Origin: an uncultured Propionivibrio sp.
Lineage (GTDB): Bacteria; Pseudomonadota; Gammaproteobacteria; Burkholderiales; Rhodocyclaceae
Length of the DNA: 64,000 nucleotides
Direction: 5' to 3'
Assembly (NCBI RefSeq): GCF_963666255.1
Contig: NZ_OY762656.1
Location: 744,001 to 808,000 of the forward strand
Shown piece by piece: positions 6,626-32,337 of the stretch (positions within the stretch are counted from its first letter, which is position 1; each line of letters starts with the position of its first letter). The position numbers and the translations under genes were made by a program. The notes beneath the pieces were generated by a model, which saw nothing but the letters and a program-made list of their open reading frames with translations, ran no database searches and was not told the DNA's origin.

Positions 6626-8020
6626 TCAGCGCGTTACTGGAGATGACATCGGTGCGCGATGACAATAGCGTCCGCGGCCGGCCTCGACGCGCAGTTCGCC
6701 ATCGGCCCAGACATGCGCGCCGCGAGCGAGCGTCTGGACAACAACGCCGCGGACCTCGCGCCCTTCCCAGACGGAAAAATCGGTGCGCTGATGCTGCGTC
6801 GCCGCCGACAGCGTTTTCGTGCGCGCCGGATCGAGCACGATCACATCAGCATCGCCGCCGATCTCCAGCCCGCCCTTGCGCGGCCAGAGGCCAAAGGTCT
6901 TCGCCGCATTCGTCGCGGTCAGCGCGACAAATTGCTCGGGCGTGATCCGACCGGCATTGACACCGAGATCCCAGAGCACCGACAGGCGCTCCTCGACACC
7001 GCCACAGCCGTTCGGAATCCTGGTGAAGGCGTCGCGCCCCAGGCGCTTCTGCGCTTTCGTGAAGCAGCAATGATCGGTTCCCGTCGTGCTCAGCGTGCCA
7101 TCCTGAACACCCGCCCAGAGCACGGGCGGGTGCGCGGCCGGGCGATACGGCGGGCTCATGACGTGACCGGCGGCGATATCGAAATCCTCGCTGCGATAAA
7201 CCGAATCGTCGATCGCCAGGAAACCCGGTAGCGTCTCGCCGATCACCGGCACGCCGCGCGCCTGTGCGGCGGCAATCGCCTGCACTGCCTCGGCGGCAGA
7301 AACGTGGACGACATAGAGCGGCACACCGACGGTCTCGGCCAATGCAATCGCCCGGCCGGTCGCCTCGCCCTCGCACAGCGACGGGCGCGACAGCGCGTGA
7401 CCGAGCGGTGCGGTAACGCCCTCGGCCAACAATTTTTCCTGCAGATAGGCAATCAGGTCGCCATTTTCGGCATGAACCTGCGGCAAGGCACCCAACTCAC
7501 GGCAACGCCGGAATCCTTCGATCAGATATTCGTCGGGCAACATCAACCCACCCTTGTAGGCGAGGAAGAATTTGAAGCTGCTGATGCCGTGCGCGCGTAC
7601 AAGCGTCGCCATCTCGTCGGCGAAACGCGCGCCCCACCACGACACGGTCATATGGAAGCCGTAATCGACCACCGACTTCGCCGCCCAGCCCTGCCAGACG
7701 GCGAGCGCCTCCAACGGCGACTGGCCTTTCTCCGGACCGACGAAATCGAGGATCGTCGTCGTTCCACCGGCGGCCGCGGCCGCAGTCCCCGAGCCGAAGT
7801 CGTCGGCGACCACCGTGCCCATCATCGGCAACTGCATGTGCGTGTGCGGGTCGATGCCGCCGGGCATGACGAAACAACCGCCGGCATCGATGATGTCGGC
7901 GCCCTCGGCGGCAAGGTCTGCGCCGATCGCCACAATGCGGCCGTCATGGCAACGCAGGTCGGCGCGCCGACGACCGTCGGCGGTGACCAGCATTCCGCCG
8001 CGAATCAGGACGTCGCGCAT
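6626..8020 (-). CDS. hyuA: Dihydropyrimidinase / D-hydantoinase (HyuA/YgeZ-like)
   Basis: A cyclic-amidase of the amidohydrolase superfamily (464 residues) that opens hydantoin or dihydropyrimidine rings to N-carbamoyl amino acids. Metal ligands are visible as His59 and His61 (DPHTH), the lysine expected to be carbamylated is Lys150 in SSFK, and later ligands appear in HAEN, HVSA and GTDHC. The C-terminal part (GRITPEQF, FGLWPRKG, WEG, AGRGRY) looks closer to E. coli YgeZ/HyuA than to generic DHPase. Its ATG at 8020 lies 16 bases inside the end of the ygfK-like gene, so the two are translationally coupled. This pairing is typical of the selenium-dependent molybdenum hydroxylase clusters. The substrate may be a hydantoin-like purine breakdown product; classical dihydropyrimidine use is the alternative. 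Confidence 0.88.
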   Translation of the reverse strand: MRDVLIRGGMLVTADGRRRADLRCHDGRIVAIGADLAAEGADIIDAGGCFVMPGGIDPHTHMQLPMMGTVVADDFGSGTAAAAAGGTTTILDFVGPEKGQSPLEALAVWQGWAAKSVVDYGFHMTVSWWGARFADEMATLVRAHGISSFKFFLAYKGGLMLPDEYLIEGFRRCRELGALPQVHAENGDLIAYLQEKLLAEGVTAPLGHALSRPSLCEGEATGRAIALAETVGVPLYVVHVSAAEAVQAIAAAQARGVPVIGETLPGFLAIDDSVYRSEDFDIAAGHVMSPPYRPAAHPPVLWAGVQDGTLSTTGTDHCCFTKAQKRLGRDAFTRIPNGCGGVEERLSVLWDLGVNAGRITPEQFVALTATNAAKTFGLWPRKGGLEIGGDADVIVLDPARTKTLSAATQHQRTDFSVWEGREVRGVVVQTLARGAHVWADGELRVEAGRGRYCHRAPMSSPVTR

Positions 8021-10068
8021 GACTCCGCCATTTCCAGGGCGGTCTTGACGTAGTTGCTGGCCTCGGCGTCGATCACGGCAAGACGCAGCAATTCCATGAG
8101 CCGAAGCGGGCGCAGATCGACGGCGGCGTCGGCCTGTCCCTCGACCGATCCGAGCGGGTTGTCGAGGTCGACACGGATATCGAAGCCCTCGCCGACATAG
8201 CGCAGCTTGACGCCCGGCGTGTGTTCGAGCCGTAGTTCCTTGCCCTCGACACGGGCGAACATGGTCAGCGTCTCGCCGTCGCGCACCAGCGCGTAACCGT
8301 CGCGGGTCGGCGCCGCCTGCCAGGCGGCCAGACTGCCGAAGAAGCGCGGCTTGATCAGGCAGGGACTGCGGTTTTCCGGGCAGATCACCTCACAGTTGCC
8401 GCACTCGTTGCAGGCATCGATGAAGTTGCCGATCTGCCAGGGCTTGCGGAATTCGATCGGATCGGTCGCTTCGACCGTCCACCCCGTTGCCGACGGCACC
8501 AGCCGCCCGGTCGAATACGTGCCCGGTTCGATCGCGAGGACGAGGTTGGCGTTGTTCGGGCAGACCGAGATGCACTTGTTACAGTTCACGCAGTCGAACA
8601 TCGCCAGCTGCTTCTTGAGCTTGAGCGGCGCCGGGTCGTGCTTGGCGCGGGTGTAGCGCGGATCGTCGAGCGCGCGCGCCACATAGGTGTCGGTGTTGCG
8701 CAACACGCAGGCCGACACCCAGGCCGGGAAAGCCTCGCCGGCCGCCGCGGCGAGATCGCCGCCATTTTTCAGCGCCGCCCGGCAGGCGTCGACACGCGCC
8801 GCCGACAGGCCGAGGCCATCAAGCGCCGCCTCGCCGTGGCCGAACGCCTTGATAACGAATTCGTCGAGCGTGCGTGCGCCGGTTTCCGTCATGCGCGCTT
8901 CGAGCGCCGTCAGATACGCGGCGCCACGACCGTAACCGCCGGCCTTGAGCAGGTCGGAACAGACCGTCACCGGTTTGAGGGAAAGCGCCACGGCATCGGC
9001 AAAATTCTGTTCGTTGATGCCGGCCGAGAAAGAAACGCGGTAGCGGTCGCCGAATTCGCCGCGGAATTTCCGCACCAGCGCCATCGCCAGCAAATGCAGC
9101 GGCTGGCCCGACATGTACATGTTCGACTCGACCGCCGGGAAGAAATTCTTGTAGTTCTTGACCAGCAGCGTGTTGCAGAACTTGACGCCGAAATCGCGCC
9201 CCTGTTGCGTCGCCAGATCGCCGAGCCGCGTGATGATGCCGACCATGTCCGCCCACGAGGGATCGCCGGCAAAGGCGGAATCCGGAACGATGAGATCGGT
9301 ATAGCCGAGCCGATCATGGAGAATCTCGAAGAGCGTCTCGCGACCGAGCAGCGTCGGATTCAGCTTGACGACGACATTGAGCCCCATGTCGCGCAGCAGG
9401 AAGCTGGCAATCGCCTCGATTTCATCGGGCGGACAGCCGTGGAAAGTCGATAGCGTCAGCGTGTCCGAGATACATGTCCGGAACGGCAGGTCGCGGAACC
9501 GCGCCAGCGCGTCGGGGATCTGCGCACGCAGCCGTTCGACGGTCGCGCGCGCATCCATCAGCCCGGTCAGGAACGCGCGGATCGGCGGCGAACTGATGCC
9601 GGCGAGATCGTAGCCGACGCTCATGTCGAAAACCGTCTCGGCATGGCCGACGGCCAGACCGTCCGCCTTCAGCATCTCGACAAGCATCGACGCCTTGACG
9701 TACTCCTCGAGCGACTGCTCCAGCTTGAGCTCCTGCGACCATTCGACGTTGAAACCGACCGTCTGCATGTCGATGCAGGGCCGCACGATTTTCAGCTCAT
9801 CCATCACCTGGACGGTCTTGAGCTCCATGAAGCGCCCACCGCACAGCCAGGCGAGCACGATGTTCTGCGCCAGTTGCGTGTGCGGACCGGCCGCCGGACC
9901 GAAGGGGGTAGACACCGGACCGCCCGGAAACGACATCGACAGGTCAAGATCGCTGCGGCCGGCATAAAATAGATGGTTCGGCAGATCGAGGGCGCCCTTG
10001 CCGGCGGCCAGATCGGAGAACAGACGCGTGGCAAGGATGTCAAACGGGATCGGAGTCAGGTCGGCCAT
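8005..10068 (-). CDS. ygfK: YgfK-like Fe-S oxidoreductase lacking the flavin domain
   Basis: A 687-residue relative of E. coli YgfK (about 1030 residues), a putative reductase of purine-breakdown clusters. The N-terminal 440 residues are the dihydropyrimidine/dihydroorotate dehydrogenase-like barrel (PAAGPHTQLAQN, ELKTVQ, STFHGCPPDEIE, VKLNPTLLG). The C-terminus has two [4Fe-4S] motifs at Cys493/496/499/503 and Cys553/556/559/563, plus the short family-specific tail. The GltD-like FAD/NAD(P) domain that sits between these parts in E. coli is absent: barrel and ferredoxin part are joined by a short linker (SACVLRNTD). It therefore must take or give electrons through another protein. It heads a two-gene minus-strand operon with the hydantoinase and is divergent from the XdhD-like gene. 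Confidence 0.85.
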   Translation of the reverse strand: MADLTPIPFDILATRLFSDLAAGKGALDLPNHLFYAGRSDLDLSMSFPGGPVSTPFGPAAGPHTQLAQNIVLAWLCGGRFMELKTVQVMDELKIVRPCIDMQTVGFNVEWSQELKLEQSLEEYVKASMLVEMLKADGLAVGHAETVFDMSVGYDLAGISSPPIRAFLTGLMDARATVERLRAQIPDALARFRDLPFRTCISDTLTLSTFHGCPPDEIEAIASFLLRDMGLNVVVKLNPTLLGRETLFEILHDRLGYTDLIVPDSAFAGDPSWADMVGIITRLGDLATQQGRDFGVKFCNTLLVKNYKNFFPAVESNMYMSGQPLHLLAMALVRKFRGEFGDRYRVSFSAGINEQNFADAVALSLKPVTVCSDLLKAGGYGRGAAYLTALEARMTETGARTLDEFVIKAFGHGEAALDGLGLSAARVDACRAALKNGGDLAAAAGEAFPAWVSACVLRNTDTYVARALDDPRYTRAKHDPAPLKLKKQLAMFDCVNCNKCISVCPNNANLVLAIEPGTYSTGRLVPSATGWTVEATDPIEFRKPWQIGNFIDACNECGNCEVICPENRSPCLIKPRFFGSLAAWQAAPTRDGYALVRDGETLTMFARVEGKELRLEHTPGVKLRYVGEGFDIRVDLDNPLGSVEGQADAAVDLRPLRLMELLRLAVIDAEASNYVKTALEMAESCATS

Positions 10069-10182
10069 ATCTTATTCGCCAGGAAACAGAATTGCTCACG
10101 GTAATGACGCAAAAACAACGCAGCTTCTCCAGCAACATGCATGCCAGGGTTGCTGCGTTCGCTCAGTCTGTCATTCGCTTGG

Positions 10183-10211
10183 ATTGAAAGATTGAAATTA
10201 ACATATCACAA
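10183..10211 (-). promoter_or_regulatory. Predicted promoter of ygfK-hyuA
   Basis: On the minus strand TTGTGA (10206-10211) and TTCAAT (10183-10188) are separated by 17 bp, each matching the sigma-70 consensus at four of six positions. The dyad at 10223-10238 lies just upstream. This is a pattern-based guess. Confidence 0.4.
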
Positions 10212-10222
10212 TACGGATGTTT

Positions 10223-10238
10223 TGAAACCATTGTTTCA
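10223..10238. promoter_or_regulatory. Perfect 6-4-6 inverted repeat, probable operator (site A)
   Basis: The sequence TGAAACCATTGTTTCA has perfect 6-bp arms around a 4-bp centre. It lies in the 236-bp region between the divergent ygfK-hyuA and xdhD-ssnA operons. Closely similar dyads are found before the permease, the ABC importer and the carbamoylase genes, so it is likely a shared regulator site. Confidence 0.65.
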
Positions 10239-10304
10239 CATGGCCCGGAATTTGCAAGCCGTTGAACCGGCGCATCCGCCAGACCCACGCAAAGGCAAAC
10301 GCAC

Positions 10305-12947
10305 ATGACCTTGTACCACTTCACGCTCAACGGCACCCCGGTCGAAGCCGAGGCCGAGCCGACGCAATCGTTGCTCGAGATTCTGCGCACGCAGTTCAAG
10401 ATCATCTCGGTCAAGAGCGCCTGCGCCCCGCAGGGCCAATGTGGTGCGTGTCTCGCGCTGATCGACGGCGTGCCGCGCACCTCCTGCAGTCTGGCCATGG
10501 GCAAGATCGAGGGCAAGAAAATCCTGACGCTCGAAGGCGTCAGCGAGGAGGAGCGGGCGCTGTACGCCCAGGCGTTCCAGAAGGCCGCCGGCATGCAGTG
10601 CGGTTTCTGCACGCCCGGCCTCGTGCTGCGCATCAAGTGGCTGACCGACCGCGCCCGCCCGATGTCGCGCCAGGAGATCGCCGAAGCGCTGAACGGACAC
10701 GTCTGCCGCTGCACCGGCTATGTCAAGATCATCGATGCGGTCGAACTCATCTACGCCGCCAAGCACGGCGGCCAGCCGCTCGACGCGCCGGCCGAACAGG
10801 GCCGTGTCGGCGATCCGCTCGGCCGCTATCAGGGCATGGCGCTGGCGCTCGGCCAGCGGCCCTTCGTCGCCGACCTCGATGTTCCCGGCCTGCTGCACGG
10901 CGCGCTGACGCTGTCGCCGCATGCGCGGGCGCGCGTCATTTCGATCGACACCAGCAAGGCCGCGGCGCTGCCCGGCGTCATCCGCGTCGCCACCGCCAAG
11001 GACGTGCCTGGCGACCGCTGGGTTGGCCTGATCTACAAGGACTGGCCCTGCTTCGTCGCCGAGGGTGAGGAAGTCCGCTACGTCGGCGACGTGCTCGCCG
11101 CGGTCGCTGCCGAAACACCACAGATCGCCCGTGCCGCCGCCAAACTCGTCGAGGTCGTGTACGAGCCGCTGCCACCGGTGCTCGATCCGGCCGAAGCGAT
11201 CAGGCCGGGCGCGCCGCAGGTCAATCCGAAGCATGACAACGTGCTGTCGCGCTCGATCCTCCAGCGCGGCGACGTCGATGCCGCGCTCGCCGCCTCGGCC
11301 CACGTCGTCAGCGGCACCTGGCGCACCCAGCGCGTCGAGCACATGTTCCTCGAACCGGAAGCGGCGCTGGCCGTGCCGCTCGATGACGGCCGCGTTCATC
11401 TCTACACGCAGGGCCAGGGTATTTTCGAGGACCGCCATCAGGTTGCCTCGGTGCTCGGCGAACCCGAAACGAATGTCTATGTCGAGCTGGTGCCGAACGG
11501 CGGCGCCTTCGGCGGCAAGGAAGACATGACGGTGCAGGCGCAGACCGCACTGCTCGCCCGCCTGATCGGCCGGCCGGTACGCATCGAACTGACCCGCGAA
11601 GAGTCGGTGCGCATGCATCCAAAGCGCCATCCGATGACGATGGACTACACTGTCGGCTGCGACGCCGAAGGCCGGCTGACTGCCGCGCGCGTCTATGTGC
11701 TCGGCGATTCCGGCGCCTACGCCTCGGTCGGCGGCAAGGTGCTCGAACGCGCCGGCGGCCACGCCTGCGGCGCCTACCGGATTCCCGTCATCGACATCGA
11801 AGCGGTCGCCGCCTACACCAACAACCCGCCCTGCGGCGCCATGCGCGGCTTCGGCGTCAACCAGACCAACTTCGCCATCGAGGGCTGCCTCGACCTGCTC
11901 GCCAAGAAAGTCGGCATCGACGGCTGGGAAATGCGCTGGCGCAACGGCATCCGCGTCGGCGACATGTTCAGCAGCGGCCAGATCCTGGAGAAATCGGTCG
12001 GCCTCGAACGCACGCTGCTGGCGGTCAAGGACAGCTACTACGAAGCCAAGGCGGCCGGACGCGCCGTCGGCATCGCTTGCGGCGTCAAGAACTGCGGCCT
12101 CGGCAACGGCGCGATCGAACGCGGCTACTGTCAGATGGTCGTCGAAGCCGACGGCAGCATCGGGCTGTACTCCGGATTCACCGAAATGGGGCAGGGGCTG
12201 ATGACGATCATCATCCAGTTCGCCGTCGAAGTGACCGGCCTGCCGCCCTCGGTCTTCCGGCCGCAGATCAACAGTCGCTTCGAACTCGCTGGCGGCGCCA
12301 CGACCGGCTCGCGCGGCACGCTGCTCGCCGGCCGCGCCACCATCGACGCGGCCGAGAAACTCAAGGCCGATCTCGACGCCGGCAAGACGCTCGCCGACCT
12401 CGTCGGGCGCAGTTATGCCGGCGAGACGATCATCGACGACACGACAGCGCTCGGCCAGACCAAGAACGGCAAGATCAAGACGCACACCACCTTCGGCTGG
12501 GCCTCGCAAGTCGTCGTGCTCAACGAGGACGGTGCCGTCGATTTCGTACACTCTGCTCAGGACGTCGGCCGCATCATCAATCCGCAGCAATGCGAGGGTC
12601 AGCTCGAAGGCGCCATCCACATGGGTCTCGGCTACGCGCTGACCGAGGAACTGCCGTGCAAGGACGGCATGCCGGTGGCTTACACGATGCGCGACCTCGG
12701 CATCCTGCGCGCCAAGCACATGCCCCGGGTCAAGATCACGCTGGTCGAGGAGAACGAACCCGAAGGCCCGTTCGGCGCCAAGGGTATCGGCGAACTCGGC
12801 CTGGTGCCGACGCCGAGCGCATTGGCCGGCGCGCTGGAAGCCTTCGACGGCACGCGTCACCAGTCGCTGCCGATGCGGGATTCGCCGGCCGCGCGGGCGA
12901 TCGACGTCGGCCAGCTCGACGACGCGGAGCGCGATCAATGGCACTAG
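10305..12947 (+). CDS. xdhD: XdhD-like molybdenum hydroxylase (2Fe-2S and Mo domains fused), probably selenium-dependent
   Basis: An 880-residue purine-hydroxylase-type enzyme. The N-terminal part carries both [2Fe-2S] clusters (Cys40, Cys46, Cys49, Cys61; then Cys99, Cys102, Cys134, Cys136) and is fused directly to the molybdopterin-binding region. The latter shows the GGKED motif and the catalytic Glu830 in KGIGELG. The fusion without an FAD domain is the E. coli XdhD layout; there the FAD subunit YgfM is separate, and no such gene is in this window. The surrounding yqeB, yqeC, mocA, ssnA and ygfK homologues are markers of the selenium-dependent hydroxylase class, so a labile Se at the Mo site is expected. 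The likely substrate is a purine or purine-derived heterocycle. The gene overlaps ssnA by 10 bases. Confidence 0.86.
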   Translation: MTLYHFTLNGTPVEAEAEPTQSLLEILRTQFKIISVKSACAPQGQCGACLALIDGVPRTSCSLAMGKIEGKKILTLEGVSEEERALYAQAFQKAAGMQCGFCTPGLVLRIKWLTDRARPMSRQEIAEALNGHVCRCTGYVKIIDAVELIYAAKHGGQPLDAPAEQGRVGDPLGRYQGMALALGQRPFVADLDVPGLLHGALTLSPHARARVISIDTSKAAALPGVIRVATAKDVPGDRWVGLIYKDWPCFVAEGEEVRYVGDVLAAVAAETPQIARAAAKLVEVVYEPLPPVLDPAEAIRPGAPQVNPKHDNVLSRSILQRGDVDAALAASAHVVSGTWRTQRVEHMFLEPEAALAVPLDDGRVHLYTQGQGIFEDRHQVASVLGEPETNVYVELVPNGGAFGGKEDMTVQAQTALLARLIGRPVRIELTREESVRMHPKRHPMTMDYTVGCDAEGRLTAARVYVLGDSGAYASVGGKVLERAGGHACGAYRIPVIDIEAVAAYTNNPPCGAMRGFGVNQTNFAIEGCLDLLAKKVGIDGWEMRWRNGIRVGDMFSSGQILEKSVGLERTLLAVKDSYYEAKAAGRAVGIACGVKNCGLGNGAIERGYCQMVVEADGSIGLYSGFTEMGQGLMTIIIQFAVEVTGLPPSVFRPQINSRFELAGGATTGSRGTLLAGRATIDAAEKLKADLDAGKTLADLVGRSYAGETIIDDTTALGQTKNGKIKTHTTFGWASQVVVLNEDGAVDFVHSAQDVGRIINPQQCEGQLEGAIHMGLGYALTEELPCKDGMPVAYTMRDLGILRAKHMPRVKITLVEENEPEGPFGAKGIGELGLVPTPSALAGALEAFDGTRHQSLPMRDSPAARAIDVGQLDDAERDQWH

Positions 12948-14131
12948 CATCGGCTCTGCGGGTCGGCCCCGACCGCCACGGTCGCGTCGTCGCCATCGAT
13001 AACGGCCTGGTCGTCGCGACAGCACCCGCCGACGCACAGCACCTACCCTGCCCCGACGGCGAGATCGTCGCCGGCGCCGTCTGCGCCCATACCCATCTGT
13101 ACAGCGGGTTGGCGCCGTATGGCATGCCGCCGGCGTCGCCGCCACCGGAAGATTTCGTGCAGATCCTCGAACGTGTCTGGTGGAAACTCGACCGGGCACT
13201 CGACGCCGACGCCCTCGCCGCCTCGGTGCGCGATTACGTCGCCAAGGCGCTGCTCGCCGGCACGACGACGCTGATCGACCACCACGAGTCGCCGAACCTG
13301 ATCGAAGGTTCGCAGCAGATTATTGCCGATGCCTGCGAGCAACTCGGCATCCGCGCGCTGCTTTGCTATGGCGCCACCGAGCGCAATTTCGGTACCGACG
13401 AAGCCCGGCGTGGCCTTGAAGAATGTCGCCGCATTGCGCCGTCGCCGCTGCGGCGCGGCCTCGTCGGCCTGCATGCGAGCTTCACCGTTTCCGACGAGAC
13501 GATCCGCGCCGCCGGGCAGTTGGCCCGCGAACTCGGCACCGTCATGCACGTTCATGTCGCCGAGGATGCTGCCGACGTCGCCGATGCGCAGGCGCGTGGC
13601 TATGCGGGTCCGCTCGAACGCCTCGAACAACTGGGCGCGCTGCCGCCCGGCTCGATCATCGCCCACGGCGTCCATCTGAGCGAGACGCAGGTCCGGCACT
13701 GCGCCGAGCAGGGCTGGTGGCTCATCCACAATCCGCGCTCGAACGAAGGCAACCGCGTCGGCTATGCCAGCCAACTGCGGCACAGCCCGCGCGTCGCGCT
13801 CGGCTGCGACGGCTGGGATGCCGACATGGCCGTTGAACAGGCGGCGCTGCTGCGCCTGGCCAAGCAACACGGCGACGCCAATGTGGCAGCTCGGCTCGAC
13901 CGCGGGCATGCGCTTGTCGCCGAACGCTTCGGCGCCACCAACGACCCGCTGCAGCCCGGCGCCCTCGGTGATCTCGTCATCCGCCAGGATGGCAAGGTCC
14001 GCCATGTCATCGTCGGCGGCCGTGCCGTCGTCACCGACGGACGGCTGACCGGCGGCGATGTCGACGTCATTGTCGCCGATGCCAGACGAGAGGCCACACG
14101 CTTGTGGCACCGGATGGCCGAAACGGAATAG
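12938..14131 (+). CDS. ssnA: SsnA-family amidohydrolase / aminohydrolase
   Basis: A metal-dependent amidohydrolase (397 residues) related to E. coli SsnA and more distantly to guanine deaminase; it should deaminate or hydrolyse a purine-derived compound. The metal motif HTHLYSG is at His51-His53, followed by family features WWKLDRALD, IDHHESP, MHVHVAEDAADV and NPRSNEGNRVGY. It is about 45 residues shorter than E. coli SsnA, and the shortfall is mainly in the N-terminal strands before the HTH motif. ATG at 12938 overlaps the xdhD stop, giving tight coupling. Exact substrate is unknown for the family; anaerobic purine or urate degradation is the context-based role. Confidence 0.84.
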   Translation: MALASALRVGPDRHGRVVAIDNGLVVATAPADAQHLPCPDGEIVAGAVCAHTHLYSGLAPYGMPPASPPPEDFVQILERVWWKLDRALDADALAASVRDYVAKALLAGTTTLIDHHESPNLIEGSQQIIADACEQLGIRALLCYGATERNFGTDEARRGLEECRRIAPSPLRRGLVGLHASFTVSDETIRAAGQLARELGTVMHVHVAEDAADVADAQARGYAGPLERLEQLGALPPGSIIAHGVHLSETQVRHCAEQGWWLIHNPRSNEGNRVGYASQLRHSPRVALGCDGWDADMAVEQAALLRLAKQHGDANVAARLDRGHALVAERFGATNDPLQPGALGDLVIRQDGKVRHVIVGGRAVVTDGRLTGGDVDVIVADARREATRLWHRMAETE

Positions 14132-14217
14132 AATCTCGCCAGCATAAAAAAGCCGGCCGACGCGAAAACGCAACGACGCAAAAAAAATCAGCGCCACGCG
14201 ATCAGCTGGTACGAACG

Positions 14218-14273
14218 TTGCTCGATTGGAAACATCAGTTTCATAAGCTCCAAATTCAGGAACATTTGTTTCA
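14218..14273 (+). promoter_or_regulatory. Permease promoter region with two operator-like dyads (sites B1, B2)
   Basis: A -35-like TTGCTC (14218-14223) is followed after 4 bp by GGAAACATCAGTTTCA (14228-14243), then AGGAACATTTGTTTCA (14258-14273). The two dyad centres are 30 bp apart, close to three helical turns. Both resemble the 16-bp site A. A dyad directly after the -35 element is typical for repression. Confidence 0.6.
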
Positions 14274-14349
14274 ATTTGGTGCGTTGTGCTGTCGATTGAT
14301 CCCCGTTTTGGTGAATTCGCATCCATCTTCTGTCCAGGGAGACATAACC

Positions 14350-15837: not shown

Positions 15838-15911
15838 GCGTGGTCAGGCGGTGATGTGCCTTGAACGCGGTACACTGAGCGGTCCGACTGCCAACGCCTG
15901 ACCGCTCCGCT

Positions 15912-16985: not shown

Positions 16986-16996
16986 CGCGCTGATCA

Positions 16997-18684: not shown

Positions 18685-18722
18685 GATTCGGGCTGAAATT
18701 CGTGCCTGAGATCAGAACCCGG

Positions 18723-23995: not shown

Positions 23996-24056
23996 ACCCC
24001 CGCCGGGCCGGCGCTTTTGCCTTCACGCCGACCGGCCCGGTCATCCTCCTGTCATC

Positions 24057-24995
24057 ATGAACTATCTGCTCAGGCGCTTGCTGGCCGTCATCCCGGTATT
24101 GGCCGTCGTCGCCGTCATCGTCTTCCTGCTCCTGCGCCTCGCCCCCGGCGATCCCGCCGTCATCATCGCCGGCGACACGGCGAGCGCCGAGGATATCGAA
24201 CACATCCGCCAGACACTCGGCCTCAACCGGCCGGTGGTCGAGCAGTTCGTCAGCTGGATCGGCCAGATCCTGCGCGGCGATCTCGGCAACTCGGTGTTCA
24301 CCGGCATGCCGGTCGCCGAGATGATCCGCCAGCGTGTCGAGCCAACCCTGTGGATTTCGGCGCTGACCATGGCCTTCGCCGTCGTCTTCGCCGTACCGAT
24401 GGGCATCATCGCTGCCTGGAAGGCCGGCACCTGGGTCGATCGTGCCGTCTCCGGACTCGCCGTCGCGGCCTTCTCGCTGCCGGTGTTCGTCATCGGTTAC
24501 GGCTTGGTCTACGGTTTCTCGACCCAGCTCGACTGGTTCCCGGTGCAGGGCTTCAAGAGCCTCTCGGACGGCTTCATTCCCTTCATCCACCACCTTGCCC
24601 TGCCGGTCGTCAGCGGCGGACTGATCTACATGGCCTTGCTGGCGCGGATGACGCGCTCGACGATGCTGGAAGTGCTGGCCCAGGACTACATCCGTACCGC
24701 GCGCGCCAAGGGCCTCTCGTCGCAGCGCCTGTTGCTGCGCCACGCGCTCAAGAACGCCGCGGTGCCGATCGTCACGACCATCGGTCTCGGCATCGCCATG
24801 CTGCTTTCCGGCGTCATCGTCACCGAGAGCGTCTTCGCCATCCCCGGCATCGGCCGCCTCACCGTCGACTCGATCCTGCGCCGCGACTACCCGGTGATCC
24901 AGGGCATCGTGCTGGTGACGGCTACGGCCTATGTCCTTATCAACCTGATCACCGACCTGCTCTACGGTCTGTTCGATCCGCGCATCCGCTACTGA
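24057..24995 (+). CDS. ABC transporter permease, DppB-like
   Basis: A 312-residue inner-membrane permease with about six helices, the first at residues 8-28. It has the BPD_transp_1 domain and the EAA loop region ([22 protein letters not shown], split over residues around 215-235). It pairs with the DppC-like permease that follows after 17 bp. Part of the peptide-type importer. Confidence 0.9.
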
Positions 24996-25012
24996 ACCGG
25001 AGACCGCCGCCC

Positions 25013-25900
25013 ATGGACAGCCCGATGATCGCCGCCCTCGAAGCCCGGCTCGAACGACAGCGCCGGCAGCCTCGTATTCTTGTCTTCGCCCGGCGCCATC
25101 CGGTGCTTGTCGCCGGTGCCGCGCTGCTCGCGACGATGGTGCTGCTGGCCCTGCTGGCACCCTGGCTGGCGCCGCACGACCCGACCGAAATGAACGTGCT
25201 GCAGCGCCTGAAACCGCCCTCGGCCGACTACCTGCTCGGCACCGACGCGCTCGGCCGCGACATCCTTTCGCGCACCCTCTACGGCGCGCGCGTCTCGCTG
25301 CTCGTCGGCGTCTCGGTCGCGCTCTTCTCGGCGCTGGTCGGACTCGGCATCGGCACCGTCGCCGGCTTCAACCGCGTTGCCGACCGCATCATCATGCGCA
25401 TCATGGACGGCATGATGGCGATTCCCGGCATCCTGCTCGCCGTCGCGCTGATGACGCTGATCCGCGCCAGCATCGCCACCGTCGTCATCGCCATCGCCAT
25501 GCCCGAGATCCCGCGCGTCGTCCGCCTCGTCCGCTCGCTCGTGCTGACGATCCGCGAGCAGCCCTACATCGAAGCCGCCCGCGCGATGGGAACGCGGCTG
25601 CCGATGATCCTGCTCCGCCACGTCATTCCCAACCTGCTGACGCCGCTGATCGTGCAGGCCAGTTTCATCTGGGCCTCGGCAATGATTTTCGAGGCCTACC
25701 TCTCCTTCCTCGGCGCCGGTACGCCGCCCGAGGTGCCGAGCTGGGGCAACATGATGGCCGAGGGCCGCTCGGTCGTTCAGCTCGCCTTCGGCATCATCCT
25801 GTATCCGGGCATTTTCCTCGGCCTCACCGTGCTCGCCGTCAATCTCGTCGGCGACGGCCTGCGCGACCTGCTCGACCCGCGTATCGGGAGAAAACTGTGA
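25013..25900 (+). CDS. ABC transporter permease, DppC-like
   Basis: A 295-residue second permease. The N-terminal cytoplasmic stretch leads into a helix near 33-52, then the DppC signature [20 protein letters not shown], a set of membrane helices and an EAA loop ([18 protein letters not shown]). The ATG at 25013 was chosen as it follows the dppB-like stop closely; longer in-frame readings would lie inside that gene. The stop overlaps the next start as GTGA. Confidence 0.9.
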
Positions 25901-26910
25901 GCACCCCGATTCTCGAGATCGACGACCTGCGCATCGCCTTCGCCAGTCCCGACGGCATCGTCCGAGCGGTGGACGGCGTCTCCTGGCAGCTGAACGCCGG
26001 CGAAATGCTCGGCATCGTCGGCGAATCCGGCTGCGGCAAAAGCGTCACGGCGATGTCGATCCTGCGCCTCCTGCCCGGACCGCCGGCGATGTTCGCCAGC
26101 GGCGCCATCCGCTTTCGCGGCGAGGACCTGCTCGCCGCCAGCGAAGCGCGGATGCGGGCGCTGCGCGGCAATGCCATCTCGATGATCTTCCAGGACCCGA
26201 TGACCTCGCTCAATCCGGTGCTGACGATCGGAGAGCAGATTGCCGAAGTGCTGATCCTGCACCAGAAGCTGTCCAAACGTGCCGCCTGGACCCGCGCCGG
26301 CGAGATGCTCGATCTCGTCGGCATTCCCGACCCGGCCCGCCGCCTCACCGACTACCCGCACCAGTTCTCGGGCGGCATGCGCCAGCGGGCGATGATCGCG
26401 CTGGCGCTCGCCTGCAATCCGGCCGTGCTGATTGCCGACGAGCCGACCACCGCGCTCGACGTGACGATCCAGGCGCAGATCATGGAACTCCTTGCCCGGC
26501 TGCGCCGCGAGATGGGGACGGCGATCGTGCTGATCACCCACGATCTCGGCGTCGTCGCCGAATGCTGCGACCGCGTCGTCGTCATGTACGCCGGCACCAA
26601 GGTCGAGGAAGCCCGCGTCGATACGCTCTTCGCCCGCCCCAGCCACCCCTACACGCGCGGCCTGCTCGCCGCGATGCCCGAACTCGACACGCCAGGTGAC
26701 GCCAGCCATCGCCGTCTCGCCGAAATCCCGGGCATGGTGCCGTCGCTGAAACAGGCCGCCGTCGGCTGCCGTTTCGCGCCGCGTTGCGCCCTCGCCGACG
26801 AGCGTTGCCGGCAGACGATCCCGGCGCTCGTCCCCGCTGCCGGCGAACATGCGGACCATCTCGCCGCCTGTTTCCGCGCCCACGAACCCCTGCCAGGAAC
26901 CGTCGCATGA
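25897..26910 (+). CDS. ABC transporter ATP-binding protein, DppD-like
   Basis: A 337-residue ATPase with Walker A GESGCGKS, signature SGGMRQR, Walker [13 protein letters not shown] and the oligopeptide-transporter C-terminal domain with its Cys motif (CRFAPRC...C), which in this family can bind a [4Fe-4S] cluster. It starts with GTG at 25897, overlapping the upstream stop, with GGGAG as ribosome-binding site. It works as a heterodimer with the DppF-like ATPase. Confidence 0.9.
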
Positions 26911-27890
26911 GCGTCGTCGCCTTTCCCCGCCCGCTGCTCGAAGTGCGCGACCTCGTCAAGCATTACCCGACCCGCACGTTCTGGCGCGACAGTCCTCCGG
27001 TGAAAGCCGTCGACGGCATTTCGTTCACGCTCGGCGCCGGCGAGACGCTCGGCCTCGTCGGCGAATCCGGATGCGGCAAATCGACGGCGGCGAAAACGCT
27101 GCTGCGGTTGATCGAACCGACTGCCGGCCAGATCCTGTTCGACGGCACCGATATCGCAACGCTCTCGCCGGCCGCCTTTCGTCCCTACCGGCGCGAACTG
27201 CAGATCGTTTTCCAGGATCCCTACGCCTCGCTCAACCCGCGCCTGCGCGCCGGCGAAATCGTCGCCGAACCGCTGCGCAATTTCGGCTGGGACAGCCGCG
27301 ACGGCGAACAACGCGTCGCCGACCTCTTCACCCGCGTCGGCCTCAACACCGACGCCCTGAAAAAATACCCGCACGAGTTTTCCGGCGGGCAGCGCCAGCG
27401 CCTCGGCATCGCCCGCGCCCTGGCGCTGAACCCGCGCCTGATCGTCCTCGACGAACCGGTGTCGGCACTCGACGTCTCGATCCAGGCGCAGGTCATCAAC
27501 CTGCTCGAAGACCTGCAGGCCGACCTCGGCCTCTCCTATATCTTCGTCGCGCACGACCTCGCCGTCGTCCGCCACATCAGCCACCGCGTTGCCGTCATGT
27601 ACCTCGGCCGCATCGTCGAGATCGGCCCGGTCGACACCTTGTTCACCCGTCCGCTGCATCCGTATACGCGTGCGCTGCTGTCGGCCGTGCCGAAAATTTC
27701 GTCGGCCGCGCGCCAGGACCGCGTCCTGCTCAAGGGCGACCTGCCAAGCCCGGCCAATCCGCCCTCCGGTTGCACCTTCCGCACGCGCTGTCCGCAGGCC
27801 CGCCCGGAATGCGCCGAACGTGCGCCGCAACTCGTCGCGCACGGCGACCAGCACCAGGTCTCCTGCCATTTCGCCGGGGCGTCGGCCTGA
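26907..27890 (+). CDS. ABC transporter ATP-binding protein, DppF-like
   Basis: A 327-residue ATPase with Walker A GESGCGKS, signature SGGQRQRLG, Walker [12 protein letters not shown] and the C-terminal oligopeptide domain ([14 protein letters not shown]). The ATG at 26907 overlaps the DppD-like stop as ATGA. It is the last gene of the five-gene importer operon; no clear terminator follows before the next promoter at 27955. Confidence 0.9.
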
Positions 27891-27954
27891 TCGAACGGAA
27901 GTACCATCGGGTCTTCGGACCGGCCAAGCAGCCACTGGAACAATCGTTTTAAAT

Positions 27955-27982
27955 TTGACAAGGATGAAATATTAGTTTTAAA
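27955..27982 (+). promoter_or_regulatory. Promoter of the carbamoylase operon with operator-like dyad (site D)
   Basis: A perfect -35 TTGACA (27955-27960), 4 bp, then TGAAATATTAGTTTTA (27965-27980), overlapping a -10-like TTTAAA (27977-27982). The spacing is identical to the importer promoter at 22334. The dyad lies between the two promoter elements, as expected for a repressor site. Confidence 0.62.
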
Positions 27983-28091
27983 GTGAATTGATCATCATGA
28001 ACGGTCGGACCGGGCCGACATCCCGGCCGATATCCCGCAGCGGGACCGCATCGGTCACCGACCGTCAACCGAACAAATACGAACCACTGCC

Positions 28092-29336
28092 ATGACCACT
28101 GCCAAGACACCCCGGATCGACGGCGAGCGCCTGCTCCGTCGGCTCAACGACCTCGGCGCCATCGGTGCCATCGACGGCGGCGGTTGCGCCCGCCTCGCCC
28201 TGACCGACGCCGACAAGGCCGGACGCGACCTCGTCTGCGGCTGGATGCACGAACTGGGTCTTTCCGTCAGCATCGACGCCATCGGCAACGCCGTCGGCAT
28301 CCGCGCCGGCCGTCGTTCCGGTCCGCCGATCATGGCCGGATCGCACATCGATACCGTCCGCACCGGCGGCCGCTATGACGGCAATCTCGGCGTACTGGCC
28401 GGGCTCGAAGTCGTCGCCGCGCTCAATGATGCCGGCGTCGAAACCGAACACCCGCTGGCGGTCGCCTTCTTCACCAACGAGGAAGGGTCGCGCTTCGCCC
28501 CGGACATGATGGGTAGCCTCGTCTTCACCGGCGAACTGCCACTCGACACCGCGCTCGCCACCGTCGGCATCGACGGCGCCCGCGTCGGCGACGAACTCGC
28601 CCGCATCGGTTATGCCGGCGACACGCCGGTGCCGCGTCCGGCGCCACGCGCCTATGTCGAACTGCATATCGAACAGGGCCCGGTGCTCGACCACGAAAAC
28701 GTGGAGATCGGCGTCGTCGAATCGGTGCAGGGCATTTCCTGGACCGAGATCGAGATCGGCGGTGTCTCCAATCATGCCGGCACGACACCGATGTCGCTGC
28801 GTTGCGACCCCGGCTGGGCCGCCGGGTCGATCATCGCTTTCGTCCGCGACCTGGCGCGCGAGATCGGCGGCAGCCAGGTCGCCACGGTCGGACGGATCGA
28901 ATTTTTCCCGAACCTGATCAACGTCGTGCCTGAACGCGCCGTCCTCACCGTCGACCTGCGCAACACCGACGAGACGACGCTGCGCCAGGCCGAGGCCCGC
29001 CTGCACGCCCATCTGGACACGCTGCGCGCGCAGGAAAAGGTGACGATCACGACGCGCCGGCTGGCGCGCTTCGAACCGGTCCCCTTCGCACCGGAGATGA
29101 CCGCGCTGATCGAACGCCACGCCAAGGCGCAGGGACGCTCGACGCGCCGCTTGCCGAGCGGCGCCGGACACGACGCGCAGATTCTGGCGGCGGTCTGCCC
29201 GGCGGCGATGATTTTCGTCCCGAGTGTCAAGGGCATCAGCCATAACGTCCGGGAGTTCACTCCCCCCGATCAACTCGAAGCCGGCGCCAATGTCCTGCTG
29301 TCGGTTCTGTGCGAACTGGCCGGCGCCGACGCCTGA
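28092..29336 (+). CDS. M20-family N-carbamoyl-amino-acid hydrolase / ureidohydrolase (allantoate amidohydrolase-like)
   Basis: A 414-residue dinuclear zinc hydrolase of the hydantoinase/carbamoylase family; it removes the carbamoyl group from N-carbamoyl amino acids, ureidopropionate or allantoate as CO2 and ammonia. Metal ligands are visible: His85 (GSHIDTV), Asp96 (YDGNLG), Glu130/131 (NEEGSRF), His192 (HIEQG) and His384 (ISHN). It forms a short operon with the aminoacylase-like gene, 21 bp apart. In this island it is the natural partner of the hydantoinase, hydrolysing the ring-opened product. Which ureido compound it uses cannot be read from the sequence. Confidence 0.87.
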   Translation: MTTAKTPRIDGERLLRRLNDLGAIGAIDGGGCARLALTDADKAGRDLVCGWMHELGLSVSIDAIGNAVGIRAGRRSGPPIMAGSHIDTVRTGGRYDGNLGVLAGLEVVAALNDAGVETEHPLAVAFFTNEEGSRFAPDMMGSLVFTGELPLDTALATVGIDGARVGDELARIGYAGDTPVPRPAPRAYVELHIEQGPVLDHENVEIGVVESVQGISWTEIEIGGVSNHAGTTPMSLRCDPGWAAGSIIAFVRDLAREIGGSQVATVGRIEFFPNLINVVPERAVLTVDLRNTDETTLRQAEARLHAHLDTLRAQEKVTITTRRLARFEPVPFAPEMTALIERHAKAQGRSTRRLPSGAGHDAQILAAVCPAAMIFVPSVKGISHNVREFTPPDQLEAGANVLLSVLCELAGADA

Positions 29337-29357
29337 CCGACGCCGCGAAAGAACACC

Positions 29358-30950
29358 GTGAAAACCCTCTTCAAAGATGGCCTGATCATTGACGGCAGCG
29401 GCACCGCCGCCGTCACCGCCGACCTGCTCGTCGTCGATGGCACCATCGCCGCCATCGGACACCTGGCCGCAGAAGCCGGCACGCAGGTCATCGATGCCCG
29501 CGATCGCATCGTCTGCCCCGGCTTCATCGACACCCACACCCACTCGGACCTCGCCGCGATCATCGACCCGGCGCTCTCGGCCAAGATCCGGCAAGGCATC
29601 ACCACCGAACTGCTCGGCCAGGACGGCGTCGCGCTGGCGCCGCTGCCGGAGCAGTACATCACGCCCTGGCGCAAGAACATCGCCGGCCTCGACGGCGACA
29701 CCGACCTGATCGACTGGAAATTCCGCGACACCGACGGCTACCTCGCGCTGCTCGCCGCGCATCGCCCGGCGACCAACCTCAGCTATCTCGTGCCACACGG
29801 CAACGTGCGCATGGAAGCAATGGGACTCGACGGCCGCGCCGCCACCCGCGACGAAGTGACCCGGATGTGCGAGATCCTCGACCGCGAACTGGCCGCCGGC
29901 GCCTACGGCTTCTCCACCGGCCTCATCTACATGCCCTGCGCCTTCGGCGATACGCACGAACTCGTCGAACTGTGCAAGGTCACCGCGCGGCGCGGCGGCA
30001 TCTTCGTCGTGCATCAGCGCAGCGAGGCCGACGACATCCTCGCCTCGACGCAGGAACTCATCGACATCACGCGGGCTTCGGGCGTGCATCTGCACATCTC
30101 GCACATGAAAGTCTGCGGCAAGAAGAACTGGGGGCTGATCGACCCGATGCTCGACATGCTGGAACGCGCCCAGCAGGAAGGCATGAAGATCTCCTACGAT
30201 CAGTATCCCTACGTCGCCGGCAGCACCATGCTCGGCGTCATCCTGCCGCCCTGGGTGCATGCGGGCGGCACCGACAAGTTGCTCGAACGCCTCGCCGATC
30301 CCGCCGCACGCACGCAGATGATCGCCGACATCGAGCGCGGCATCCCCGGCTGGGACAACTTCATCGACTTCGCCGGCCTCGACCAGATCTTCGTCACCAG
30401 CGTCAAGACCGAGCGCAATGCCGACGCCGTCGGCCTCAACCTCGTCCAGCTCGGCGAGCTGCGCGGCAAGGATCCCTACAACGCCACCTTCGACCTGCTC
30501 TACCAGGAAGACAATGCCGTGGGCATGGTCGATTTCTACGGCACCGAGGAGCACGTCATCAAGTTCCTCTGCCGTCCCGAGCAGAACGTCTGTACCGACG
30601 GGCTGATGGGCCGCGGCAAGCCGCATCCGCGCGTCTTCGGCGCCTTCCCGCGCGTGCTCGGCAAGTACGTACGCGAGGAAAAACGCCTGAGCTGGGAAGC
30701 GGCTATCCACAAGATGACCGGTAAGCCGGCCGCCGTGCTCGGTCTTTCCGACCGCGGCCTGCTCCGCCCCGGCTATGCCGCCGACATCGTCATGCTCAAC
30801 CCGGCGACGGTCATCGACAAGGGCAGCTTCATCGAACCCAATCAATATCCGGACGGCGTCGACGCGGTGATGGTCAACGGCGCCTTCGCCTTCGTCGGCG
30901 GCATCGAGACCGGCGCCCGCAGCGGACGGGTATTGCGCAAGGCTTACTGA
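29358..30950 (+). CDS. N-acyl-D-amino-acid deacylase / D-aminoacylase-like amidohydrolase
   Basis: A 530-residue amidohydrolase. The metal motif is DTHTHSD (His60, His62), and HISHMKVCGKKNW and a C-terminal GYAADIVMLNP follow. Characterised D-aminoacylases have a zinc-ligand cysteine in the loop after the GxTT segment; here that loop reads GITTELLGQDG without Cys, so the metal site differs. The start is GTG at 29358. Related enzymes remove acyl or carbamoyl groups from D-amino acids, or act on small cyclic amides. It follows the carbamoylase gene and precedes the regulator gene, suggesting use of N-substituted amino acids brought in by the ABC importer. Confidence 0.82.
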   Translation: MKTLFKDGLIIDGSGTAAVTADLLVVDGTIAAIGHLAAEAGTQVIDARDRIVCPGFIDTHTHSDLAAIIDPALSAKIRQGITTELLGQDGVALAPLPEQYITPWRKNIAGLDGDTDLIDWKFRDTDGYLALLAAHRPATNLSYLVPHGNVRMEAMGLDGRAATRDEVTRMCEILDRELAAGAYGFSTGLIYMPCAFGDTHELVELCKVTARRGGIFVVHQRSEADDILASTQELIDITRASGVHLHISHMKVCGKKNWGLIDPMLDMLERAQQEGMKISYDQYPYVAGSTMLGVILPPWVHAGGTDKLLERLADPAARTQMIADIERGIPGWDNFIDFAGLDQIFVTSVKTERNADAVGLNLVQLGELRGKDPYNATFDLLYQEDNAVGMVDFYGTEEHVIKFLCRPEQNVCTDGLMGRGKPHPRVFGAFPRVLGKYVREEKRLSWEAAIHKMTGKPAAVLGLSDRGLLRPGYAADIVMLNPATVIDKGSFIEPNQYPDGVDAVMVNGAFAFVGGIETGARSGRVLRKAY

Positions 30951-30971
30951 TCCCGCCAGCAGCCGAACCGG

Positions 30972-30977
30972 TATAAT
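30972..30977 (+). promoter_or_regulatory. TATAAT -10 element next to the rpiR-type start
   Basis: A perfect TATAAT lies 8 bp before the ATG at 30986 and no ribosome-binding site is visible between them. Transcription would begin at or near the start codon, so the mRNA may be leaderless. No good -35 element is visible. Confidence 0.5.
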
Positions 30978-30985
30978 CGAGCGCT

Positions 30986-31858
30986 ATGAAAAAGACCGGT
31001 CCGGCCAAGAACAAGAAGGAATTCACGCTGATCGACGAGCGCATCGGGGCGCTCACCGAGACGCTACCCGACTCCGAGCGCAAGCTGGCGGAACTCCTGT
31101 CGTCGCGACAGGTGCTGCTCGCCACGCACTCGGCAACCGAACTCGCGGCCCTCGCCGGCAGCTCCAAAGCGGCCGTCACCCGTTTCATCCAGCGCGTCGG
31201 TTACAAGAGCTTCGCCGAAGCCCGGCGCGAGGCACGCGAAGCGCAATGCTGGGGCGCCCCGGCATTTCAATATGCACCCGACCTGTCGAGCGTCTCCGAA
31301 GACGCCTTCGCCAAACACCTGCAGAGCGACCTCGACAACCTGGCGCGTACCTTTGAGCGGCTCAACCCGAAAACCGTCGAGCGCGCCATCGACGCCATCG
31401 TCAAGGCACGCCGTGTCGCTGTCATCGGCTATCGCAACAGCCATGCGCTGGCCCAGTACCTGGTCCGCCAGCTGGTCCTGCTCAAGGACGCCGTCACGCT
31501 GCTGCCGCAGGCCGGCCAGACGGTCGGCGAGGATCTCGCCGGTTTCACGGCCGACGACATGATCATCGTTCTGGCCTTCCGGCGCCGTGTCCCGGTCGTC
31601 GACCAGATCGTCCAGCACGCCCGCCAGATCGGCCTGCCGGCGCTGATCCTGACCGACGCGGGGACGCCGGCCAATGAAGTGCCCGGCGACTGGCGCATCG
31701 TCTGCGAAACGCGCGGTTCGGCGCAATTCGATTCCTACGCGGCAGCGATGAGCGTGCTCAACCTGCTCGTCTCGACGCTGGCGCTACGCCCCGAGATCGC
31801 CAACAAGCACCGGCTGCTCCAGGCCGAACGCCTGCACAGCGCCTTCAGCGAACTTTAA
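30986..31858 (+). CDS. MurR/RpiR-family transcriptional regulator
   Basis: A 290-residue regulator with an N-terminal helix-turn-helix of the RpiR type (about 10-85, including SDSERKLAELL-like spacing, TELAALAGSSKAAVTRFIQR) and a C-terminal SIS domain (about 120-265, VAVIGYRNSHALAQYLV) that usually binds a phosphorylated or small-molecule ligand. It is the only transcription factor inside the island, so it is the best candidate for binding the repeated TGAAAC-N4-GTTTCA dyads. Related members act as repressors of nearby catabolic operons. It sits downstream of the aminoacylase-like gene with a -10 element of its own. Confidence 0.88.
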   Translation: MKKTGPAKNKKEFTLIDERIGALTETLPDSERKLAELLSSRQVLLATHSATELAALAGSSKAAVTRFIQRVGYKSFAEARREAREAQCWGAPAFQYAPDLSSVSEDAFAKHLQSDLDNLARTFERLNPKTVERAIDAIVKARRVAVIGYRNSHALAQYLVRQLVLLKDAVTLLPQAGQTVGEDLAGFTADDMIIVLAFRRRVPVVDQIVQHARQIGLPALILTDAGTPANEVPGDWRIVCETRGSAQFDSYAAAMSVLNLLVSTLALRPEIANKHRLLQAERLHSAFSEL

Positions 31859-31905
31859 GGGGCAGCGCCGCAATCCTTTTTAACGACCGGAAAGGAGTGC
31901 ATGAC

Positions 31906-32337
31906 ATGACCAACGGCAGCTGGGTTTACTGGGCGCTACTGTCCGCCGTCTTCGCCGCGCTGACCGCGATTTTCGCCAAGATCGGCATCCAGGGCGTCGA
32001 CTCGGACCTCGCCACGCTGGTCCGCACCGGCATCATCATCGTCGTGCTCTCGGCCTTCGTCTGGTTCGCCGGCAAATGGAGCAACCCCTTCGCGCTGCCG
32101 GGCAAGACCTGGCTGTTTCTCACGCTCTCCGGGCTCGCCACCGGCGCGTCCTGGGTCTGTTACTTCCGCGCGCTGCAGATCGGCGAAGCGTCGAAAGTCG
32201 CGCCGATCGACAAGCTGAGCCTCGTGCTGGTCGCCCTCTTCGCCGTCGTCTTCCTCGGCGAACGGCCGTCGGTCAAGGACTGGACCGGCATCGCCATGGT
32301 CGCCGGCGGCGTCCTCGTCCTCGCGCTCAAACGCTAA
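31906..32337 (+). CDS. Small EamA/DMT-family transporter
   Basis: A 143-residue membrane protein with about five helices and a single EamA repeat, half the length of the common ten-helix DMT exporters; such proteins may work as dimers. Typical features are FAKIGIQGVDSDLATLVRT and a C-terminal GVLVLALKR. I chose ATG at 31906 because AAAGGAG lies eight bases before it; an in-frame GTG at 31897 falls inside that site. Substrate unknown. It is the last plus-strand gene of the island. Confidence 0.82.
   Translation: MTNGSWVYWALLSAVFAALTAIFAKIGIQGVDSDLATLVRTGIIIVVLSAFVWFAGKWSNPFALPGKTWLFLTLSGLATGASWVCYFRALQIGEASKVAPIDKLSLVLVALFAVVFLGERPSVKDWTGIAMVAGGVLVLALKR

Follow-up and report, generated by a model that had tools for sequence, protein, structure and literature searches.

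Reductive breakdown of urate has been described for Escherichia coli in a 2025 study (PMC12507026). According to that study, XdhD-YgfM reduces urate to yanthine in vitro, YgfK and SsnA convert yanthine mainly to ureidomethyl-hydantoin, and HyuA opens this compound to diureidopropionate; the 2-amino group is freed by YgeW or by the D-aminoacylase UacY, the 3-amino group by YgeY, and YgeX releases pyruvate. The same text describes C. difficile enzymes without flavin or nicotinamide adenine dinucleotide (NAD) domains and suggests ferredoxin as their donor. A second report (PMC11448449) gives EF2570 as a selenium-dependent xanthine dehydrogenase and finds that selD and yqeB, not yqeC, matter when C. 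difficile grows on xanthine and urate. Here, we analyze a 64,000-nucleotide stretch of a Propionivibrio genome (the window; G000:C2:744001-808000, in a genome of 3.99 Mb and four contigs), in which an island of genes at 6626-32337 probably encodes a variant of this reductive route for breaking down urate without oxygen, with several steps carried out by substitute enzymes.

The island shares with the E. coli K-12 cluster, as described in PMC12507026, an XdhD-like molybdenum hydroxylase, YgfK, SsnA, HyuA, YqeB, YqeC, MocA and a UacT-type permease. However, its hydroxylase is only 27% identical to XdhD, its YgfK has half the length, and XdhD-YgfM lies off the island. YgeW, YqeA, YgeY and YgeX are absent, and the island instead has an M20 amidase (carb), a D-aminoacylase-like protein (dac) and two pyridoxal phosphate (PLP) enzymes, PLP2 and PLP1. 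Judged by its description in the same study, the C. difficile UacX/UacY variant resembles the island in having a hydroxylase without a flavin subunit, a D-aminoacylase for YgeW and a ring reductase without an NAD domain, whereas the island has a YgfK-type reductase rather than UacX, a carbamoylase for YgeY and the PLP pair for YgeX. Islands of the Pleomorphomonas type (L057-L061, L063, L064 and L068) share XdhD at 66-68% identity, SsnA, short YgfK, carb and an RpiR-type regulator, but they have YgeX for PLP2/PLP1, a nitrilase-family protein for dac, and no selD match in their eight genomes. The original prediction called this a version of the pathway not known as described; the pathway itself was published in 2025, but as regards the tail enzymes combined here, the wording is fair. 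Titles and abstract openings of open-licence PMC articles yielded no earlier description of the PLP pair or of a Propionivibrio urate island.

Gene content and the predicted route to ring opening

Profile scores placed every homologue that the original prediction had grouped together (XdhD, SsnA, YgfK, HyuA, YqeB, YqeC, MocA and a purine permease) within 6626-32337. HyuA, XdhD (by TIGR03311), the permease, YqeC and YqeB exceed curated cut-offs; SsnA, MocA and YgfK fall under theirs, yet are clear homologues. The island XdhD shares 99% identity with its counterpart in Propionivibrio dicarboxylicus DSM 5885, and identities of 90-98% were found for the remaining island proteins within reach of the P. 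dicarboxylicus locus, so that the strain most likely belongs to Propionivibrio. For comparison, genome contigs were scanned with XdhD, and the best 80 of 122 relatives were taken as named loci in which island genes were sought by tblastn; since many of these loci are short, the absence of a gene carries little weight. Genome-wide tests for YgeX, selD, YqeB and TIGR03313 cover a hand-picked set of 43 from the 80 loci. A quick XdhD tree (LG+G4, 23 open branches) holds 79 rows, namely the window and 78 loci, two loci with less than 80% of XdhD having been left out. Among the 80 loci, we found SsnA in 47, YgfK in 42, PLP2 in 29, PLP1 in 24, YgeW in 22, carb in 21, YqeA in 20, YgeY and RpiR in 19 each, HyuA in 15, YgeX and dac in eight each, the permease in five and YqeC in one. 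The assignment to purine or urate breakdown is thus well supported, both by this recurrence of SsnA and YgfK around relatives of the hydroxylase and by the joint presence of a UacT-like permease, YgfK, SsnA, HyuA, a UacY-like dac and an EF2570-type hydroxylase.

The reactions that follow are predicted from sequence. Urate would enter through the UacT-like NCS2 permease (14350-15837, plus strand; TIGR03173 504 versus 414 bits), for which urate uptake is predicted and which is closer to UacT (50% identity) than to XanQ (25%). A molybdenum hydroxylase would then remove oxygen from urate to give 2,8-dioxopurine (yanthine). This enzyme would be the fused molybdenum/iron-sulfur hydroxylase of EF2570 type in the island (XdhD, 10305-12947, plus strand; TIGR03311 883.6 versus 830 bits); in this genome, the off-island XdhD-YgfM may act alongside it or in its place.

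The ring of yanthine would be reduced by the short YgfK (8005-10068, minus strand), a flavin/iron-sulfur reductase that lacks the GltD-like domain for NAD(P)H. The protein has 687 residues versus 1032 in E. coli, the GltD-like half being absent. Its best stretch corresponds to positions 4-399 of 1012 in the TIGR03315 profile (378 versus 835 bits) and so does not reach full length; it is 39% identical to residues 5-407 of E. coli YgfK, with Fer4 domains and a 4Fe-4S match in addition. The N-terminal half and the iron-sulfur region together supply the ring reductase expected of a reductive urate cluster. YgfK is short in all 38 XdhD loci where it is covered to at least 80% (589-697 residues from match start to stop), and the short form is therefore the rule for this type.

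SsnA and HyuA, both expected of such a cluster, would open the two rings, with HyuA turning ureidomethyl-hydantoin into 2,3-diureidopropionate. HyuA (6626-8020, minus strand) is a D-hydantoinase scoring 563.5 versus 393 bits with TIGR02033 and 41% identical to its E. coli counterpart. The SsnA aminohydrolase (12938-14131, plus strand) has TIGR03314 as its best model, though under the cut-off (246.5 versus 455.5 bits), and is 34% identical to E. coli SsnA. No flavin subunit gene lies beside the island hydroxylase. Since the redox enzymes of the island come without flavin/NAD domains or subunits, reduced ferredoxin is the likely electron donor, as suggested for C. difficile.

Proposed substitute enzymes for the last steps

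The 2-ureido group of diureidopropionate would be removed by dac and the 3-ureido group by carb. The former (29358-30950, plus strand; PF07969) is a D-aminoacylase of the UacY type expected for the 2-ureido group; its best solved relatives are 3gip and 3giq, the latter being the template named for UacY in PMC12507026. The latter protein, carb (28092-29336, plus strand; TIGR01879 409 versus 204 bits), carries PF01546 and finds its best model in PRK09290.1-3 (463 versus 452 bits). It is an M20 protein, but one of the hydantoinase/carbamoylase family, scoring 18 versus 321 bits with the YgeY model PRK13004. Its relatives in the other loci are 58-69% identical.

These genes are distributed as exchangeable modules. 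All eight loci with dac also hold carb, as do all 11 loci with a nitrilase-family protein, none of which has dac. The nitrilase-family protein scores 116 versus 410 bits with the N-carbamoylputrescine amidase model; at L060:7022-7936 and in ten more loci, it stands beside carb, where others have dac. By contrast, carb occurs in 0/80 loci together with YgeW/YqeA (Fisher p 2.7e-5) and in 0/80 together with YgeY (p 0.002), these values not being corrected for kinship. The XdhD tree requires a minimum of five changes in the 2-ureido module (dac, nitrilase, YgeW/YqeA) and a minimum of four in the 3-ureido module (carb, YgeY). A 68% relative of the window dac was found away from XdhD in the Telmatospirillum metagenome-assembled genome (MAG) of L054, in a cluster (L131:2852-11970, G258:C1) with a sigma-54 activator, YgeX, an M20 hydrolase, the D-aminoacylase itself, a major facilitator superfamily (MFS) transporter and a PLP1-like enzyme.

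For the final deamination of diaminopropionate to pyruvate, PLP2 and PLP1 would replace YgeX. Both are fold-type-II PLP enzymes encoded on the minus strand, PLP2 first, with a 4-base overlap. PLP2 (20583-22076; PF00291 45 bits) is CysK-like with extra N- and C-terminal parts, and PLP1 (19297-20586; PF00291 118 bits) is threonine-synthase-like. Neither qualifies as YgeX: they carry the general PALP domain (PF00291) only, blastp against YgeX gave no match at 1e-3, and PLP1 scores 19 versus 276 bits with PRK08206. Nothing in the genome exceeds the YgeX cut-off (TIGR01747; best 41 versus 274 bits). The predicted models are confident, with a mean predicted local distance difference test score of 90.8 for PLP2 and 90.9 for PLP1. 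The PLP2 model, of 497 residues, aligns with CysK structures across some 320-375 columns, while the PLP1 model best matches threonine synthase 2zsj, with diaminopropionate ammonia-lyase 5ygr at rank 21.

PLP2 is strongly conserved: an alignment of 24 of its 27 sequences (A1), the most distant at 45% identity, has a mean column identity of 61%, and K112 is invariant in it. Conservation is weaker for PLP1 (A2; 22 of 23 sequences, mean column identity 39%), in which K134 is invariant. From their motifs, we take these lysines to be the Schiff-base positions. PLP1 also has conserved cysteines at C9, C12 and C26. The need for two enzymes invites guesses: a racemase might assist a lyase, or the 3-amino group might first be replaced and a serine-type deamination follow.

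PLP2 and YgeX share none of the 80 loci (Fisher p 0.046, likewise uncorrected for kinship), an exclusion that is suggestive only. At genome level, YgeX exceeds its cut-off in 11 of the 43 genomes, which comprise one of the 26 with PLP2 in the locus and ten of the 17 without. PLP2 was counted as present at 30% coverage or more, a count that includes L072 (36%), L080 (in two pieces) and the doubtful L081 (28% identity, 52% coverage) and leaves out L117 (10%, contig end); the PLP1 count includes matches near 25% identity. We rejected the idea that PLP2 is a general gene of Pseudomonadota, having found it at E 1e-60 in two of 398 genomes, our own included, with the best three candidates scored per genome. 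In the other genome, an open frame at the contig end (L129:8540-11269) fuses a stretch that by eye resembles an outer-membrane protein to a PLP2 fragment; it is probably an assembly chimera.

The two hydroxylases and the question of selenium

The original prediction identified the hydroxylase as an XdhD homologue and considered it selenium-dependent. The second point is half supported. The first holds at the level of TIGR03311; by sequence, however, the orthologue of E. coli XdhD is another protein, the island enzyme scoring 226 bits with TIGR03313 against a cut-off of 1102. A MoCoBD_1 search of the genome returned two such enzymes, and the orthologue is the second one (G000:C1:950232-953108; 72.6% identity over 956 residues; TIGR03313 1790 bits). 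It is adjoined by a YgfM homologue (53% identity; TIGR03312 331 versus 241 bits). The two genes (L136:7233-10109 and 10111-10926, minus strand) lie next to clpB, away from the other urate genes.

In the island, the maturation cassette directly downstream of the hydroxylase, on the plus strand, comprises an XdhC-like molybdenum-hydroxylase maturation factor (15912-16985; XdhC_C and XdhC_CoxI domains), YqeC (16997-17851; TIGR03172 183.5 versus 73 bits), the selenium-cofactor marker YqeB (17848-18684; TIGR03309 328.9 versus 220 bits) and a MocA-like molybdenum cofactor cytidylyltransferase (18723-19322; TIGR03310 106 versus 186 bits). E. coli YqeB has its counterpart in two separate genes. The XdhC-like gene matches its N-terminal half (31% and 34% to two stretches of residues 19-254) and the YqeB gene its C-terminal half (46% to residues 254-526). 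The genome further encodes selD (424 bits), selB (458 bits) and the selenouridine synthase ybbB (371 bits). YqeB, YqeC, MocA, selD and a TIGR03311 enzyme are thus shared with the selenium-dependent molybdenum hydroxylase trait, as outlined in PMC2276186 and PMC11448449, and the YqeB, YqeC and selD markers of that trait are all present.

It is therefore possible, if on the doubtful side, that the island hydroxylase itself is selenium-dependent, matured by YqeB, YqeC and MocA with selenophosphate from SelD. The passing TIGR03311 score, the adjoining cassette and selD all favor this, and so does what PMC11448449 reports: the selenium dependence of EF2570 and the need for selD and yqeB in good growth of C. 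difficile on xanthine or urate. Against it, relatives at 66-76% identity sit in genomes without selD or YqeB. All ten relatives scored, from the 80 XdhD proteins, pass the TIGR03311 cut-off, and for five of them the genome gave no selD match. Nor is the enzyme type confined to genomes with selD, which was found in 23 of the 43 that bear it; the other 20 include six labelled isolates, Telmatospirillum siberiense and five Pleomorphomonas. The proposed check, for selD in the absence of selA/selB, was made with selD and selB, returned both genes and hence gave no answer: selB and the selenouridine synthase suffice to explain selD, so selD alone cannot decide the question. Along the XdhD tree (42 rows), the selD state changes at least eight times, fewer than in 200 shuffles (mean 14.6, minimum 10), so selD follows kinship in part. 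At 12 of the 26 listed selD places, one in-frame TGA was seen, as expected for a selenocysteine-containing SelD.

YqeB exceeds its cut-off in one of the 43 genomes, that of P. dicarboxylicus, which is also the only one with an E. coli-type XdhD (TIGR03313 over cut-off; up to the best 15 candidates scored per genome). The cassette, seen among relatives in this genus only, may therefore serve the off-island XdhD-YgfM. On a simple reading, XdhC-YqeC-YqeB-MocA and XdhD-YgfM entered the genus together and belong together functionally. The cassette does adjoin the island hydroxylase, and both hydroxylases may use it; the evidence comes from one genus. The evidence does not support selenium dependence as a property of the family to which the island enzyme belongs. 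Among 398 genomes of Pseudomonadota, with up to six best candidates scored per genome, YqeB exceeds the cut-off in two, our own included. The second (L140, L141) holds an E. coli-like cluster with no XdhD match within the 34 kb examined, and a third, under the cut-off (L142), has no island gene other than YqeB at its locus.

We tentatively propose two linked novelties, whose joint validity we regard as rather uncertain. First, the TIGR03311 family would use either selenium or sulfur at molybdenum, as set by the maturation genes of each lineage, the ligand being predicted from gene content; this island and its relatives without selD would then make up a natural paired experiment. Second, PLP2 and PLP1 would form a new two-enzyme last step that replaces diaminopropionate ammonia-lyase in several phyla and has been overlooked because a survey based on PF00291 counts the pair as YgeX; PMC12507026 does count YgeX in genome neighborhoods by this domain. 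If the island is indeed a variant urate gene set, the reductive urate pathway is built of modules, in which other enzymes can take over the two ureido cleavages and the last step. Surveys that use the PALP domain to count YgeX may then overlook a separate pair of enzymes. The label “selenium-dependent” that TIGR03311 enzymes receive automatically would be open to question, and close relatives with and without selD would give direct access to the selenium question.

A further alternative, which we consider unlikely, is that the island hydroxylase oxidizes hypoxanthine or xanthine to urate while the off-island XdhD-YgfM alone makes yanthine. The island enzyme retains the usual xanthine-dehydrogenase residues, and the step from urate to yanthine is therefore not certain for it; E350, Q371, R514 and E830 are kept in the 16 relatives shown. 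The same genome also holds the XdhD orthologue, with glutamate at the residue aligned to E606, together with YgfM. However, with up to the best 15 candidates scored per genome, no E. coli-type XdhD was found in 42 of 43 other island-type genomes, where the island enzyme would need to reduce urate if the pathway runs. For the island enzyme, an argument from E606 (PMC12507026) was given no weight: MAFFT places K there, in a stretch that aligns poorly with E. coli XdhD.

Importer, neighboring genes and distribution

Between PLP2 and carb lies an ATP-binding cassette (ABC) importer of the peptide/nickel type (22424-27890, plus strand; SBP_bac_5 and Opp/Nik/Dpp models), made up of a binding protein (22424-23995), permeases (24057-24995 and 25013-25900) and ATPases (25897-26910 and 26907-27890). 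An RpiR-type regulator (30986-31858, plus strand; HTH_6 and SIS domains) comes after dac. One could divide the island into a purine unit at 6626-19322 and a separate scavenging unit at 19297-31858 for imported D-amino-acid or N-carbamoyl compounds. The strand switch after MocA, the absence of the importer from other islands and the location of the protein nearest to the window dac, in the YgeX-M20-MFS cluster away from XdhD, all agree with such a division. We nevertheless find it improbable: other lineages, too, have carb, PLP2, PLP1 and RpiR next to XdhD, and several proteobacterial loci have PLP2 immediately after SsnA. Nicotinate or another unrelated N-heterocycle is a highly improbable substrate, since a UacT-like permease, SsnA, YgfK and HyuA occur together here, even though the selenium enzyme nicotinate dehydrogenase 3hrd is the third-best solved relative of the island hydroxylase.

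Several observations weigh against the interpretation of the island as a variant urate-breakdown gene set, or against parts of it. The importer does not recur, its binding protein having matched only L045 among the 80 loci by tblastn. The window dac is only 30-33% identical to the dac of other islands. SsnA was not seen in 33 of the 80 loci, many of those being short. The exclusion between PLP2 and YgeX amounts to a single change on the XdhD tree, and the Telmatospirillum cluster contains a PLP1-like gene alongside YgeX. E. coli XdhD has Q at the R514 position, where the island hydroxylase keeps the usual residue. Two of the 43 genomes have YqeB-like matches of 149-155 bits (cut-off 220), and one of these two lacks selD; where a MAG shows no selD, incompleteness may be the cause; and the absence of TIGR03313 rests, in genomes with more candidates, on the best 15. 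Membership of the importer in the pathway is uncertain, and together with the odd dac subfamily it leaves a wider role possible for 22424-30950.

Upstream of the island, the window encodes a pyruvate:ferredoxin-oxidoreductase-like protein (POR-like, 49-3189) and a fused GltD/DHOD-B-like, NfnAB-like protein (3186-6029; PRK12779 1769 versus 1519 bits). They were rejected as parts of the island, having matched only L045 of the 80 loci, apart from a partial 28% GltD match in L105. A role in redox supply for ferredoxin is possible, and they stand beside XdhD in the same genus only. Further upstream (L126) are a thiamine-pyrophosphate-enzyme protein and a GltD-like protein. A transfer RNA gene marking the island edge was also considered, but the window contains none.

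When 250 genomes drawn from the order were scanned with TIGR03311, the best three candidates being scored in each, only our own genome passed the cut-off, and 24 had a match at E <=1e-100. None of seven other listed genomes of the same family had a TIGR03311 match at E 1e-100. This near-absence in order and family fits acquisition by transfer. If the reading as a variant urate gene set is true, the pathway extends past the organisms examined to date and, by record title, into Alpha- and Betaproteobacteria, Planctomycetota, Ignavibacteria and others. One such title belongs to L089, whose contig is labelled Alphaproteobacteria; its XdhD falls among Phycisphaerae on the tree, and this MAG may be mislabelled or mixed. 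Outside the island, at 37820-38584, the window also encodes a protein related to EutA/arylmalonate decarboxylase, with both models under their cut-offs.

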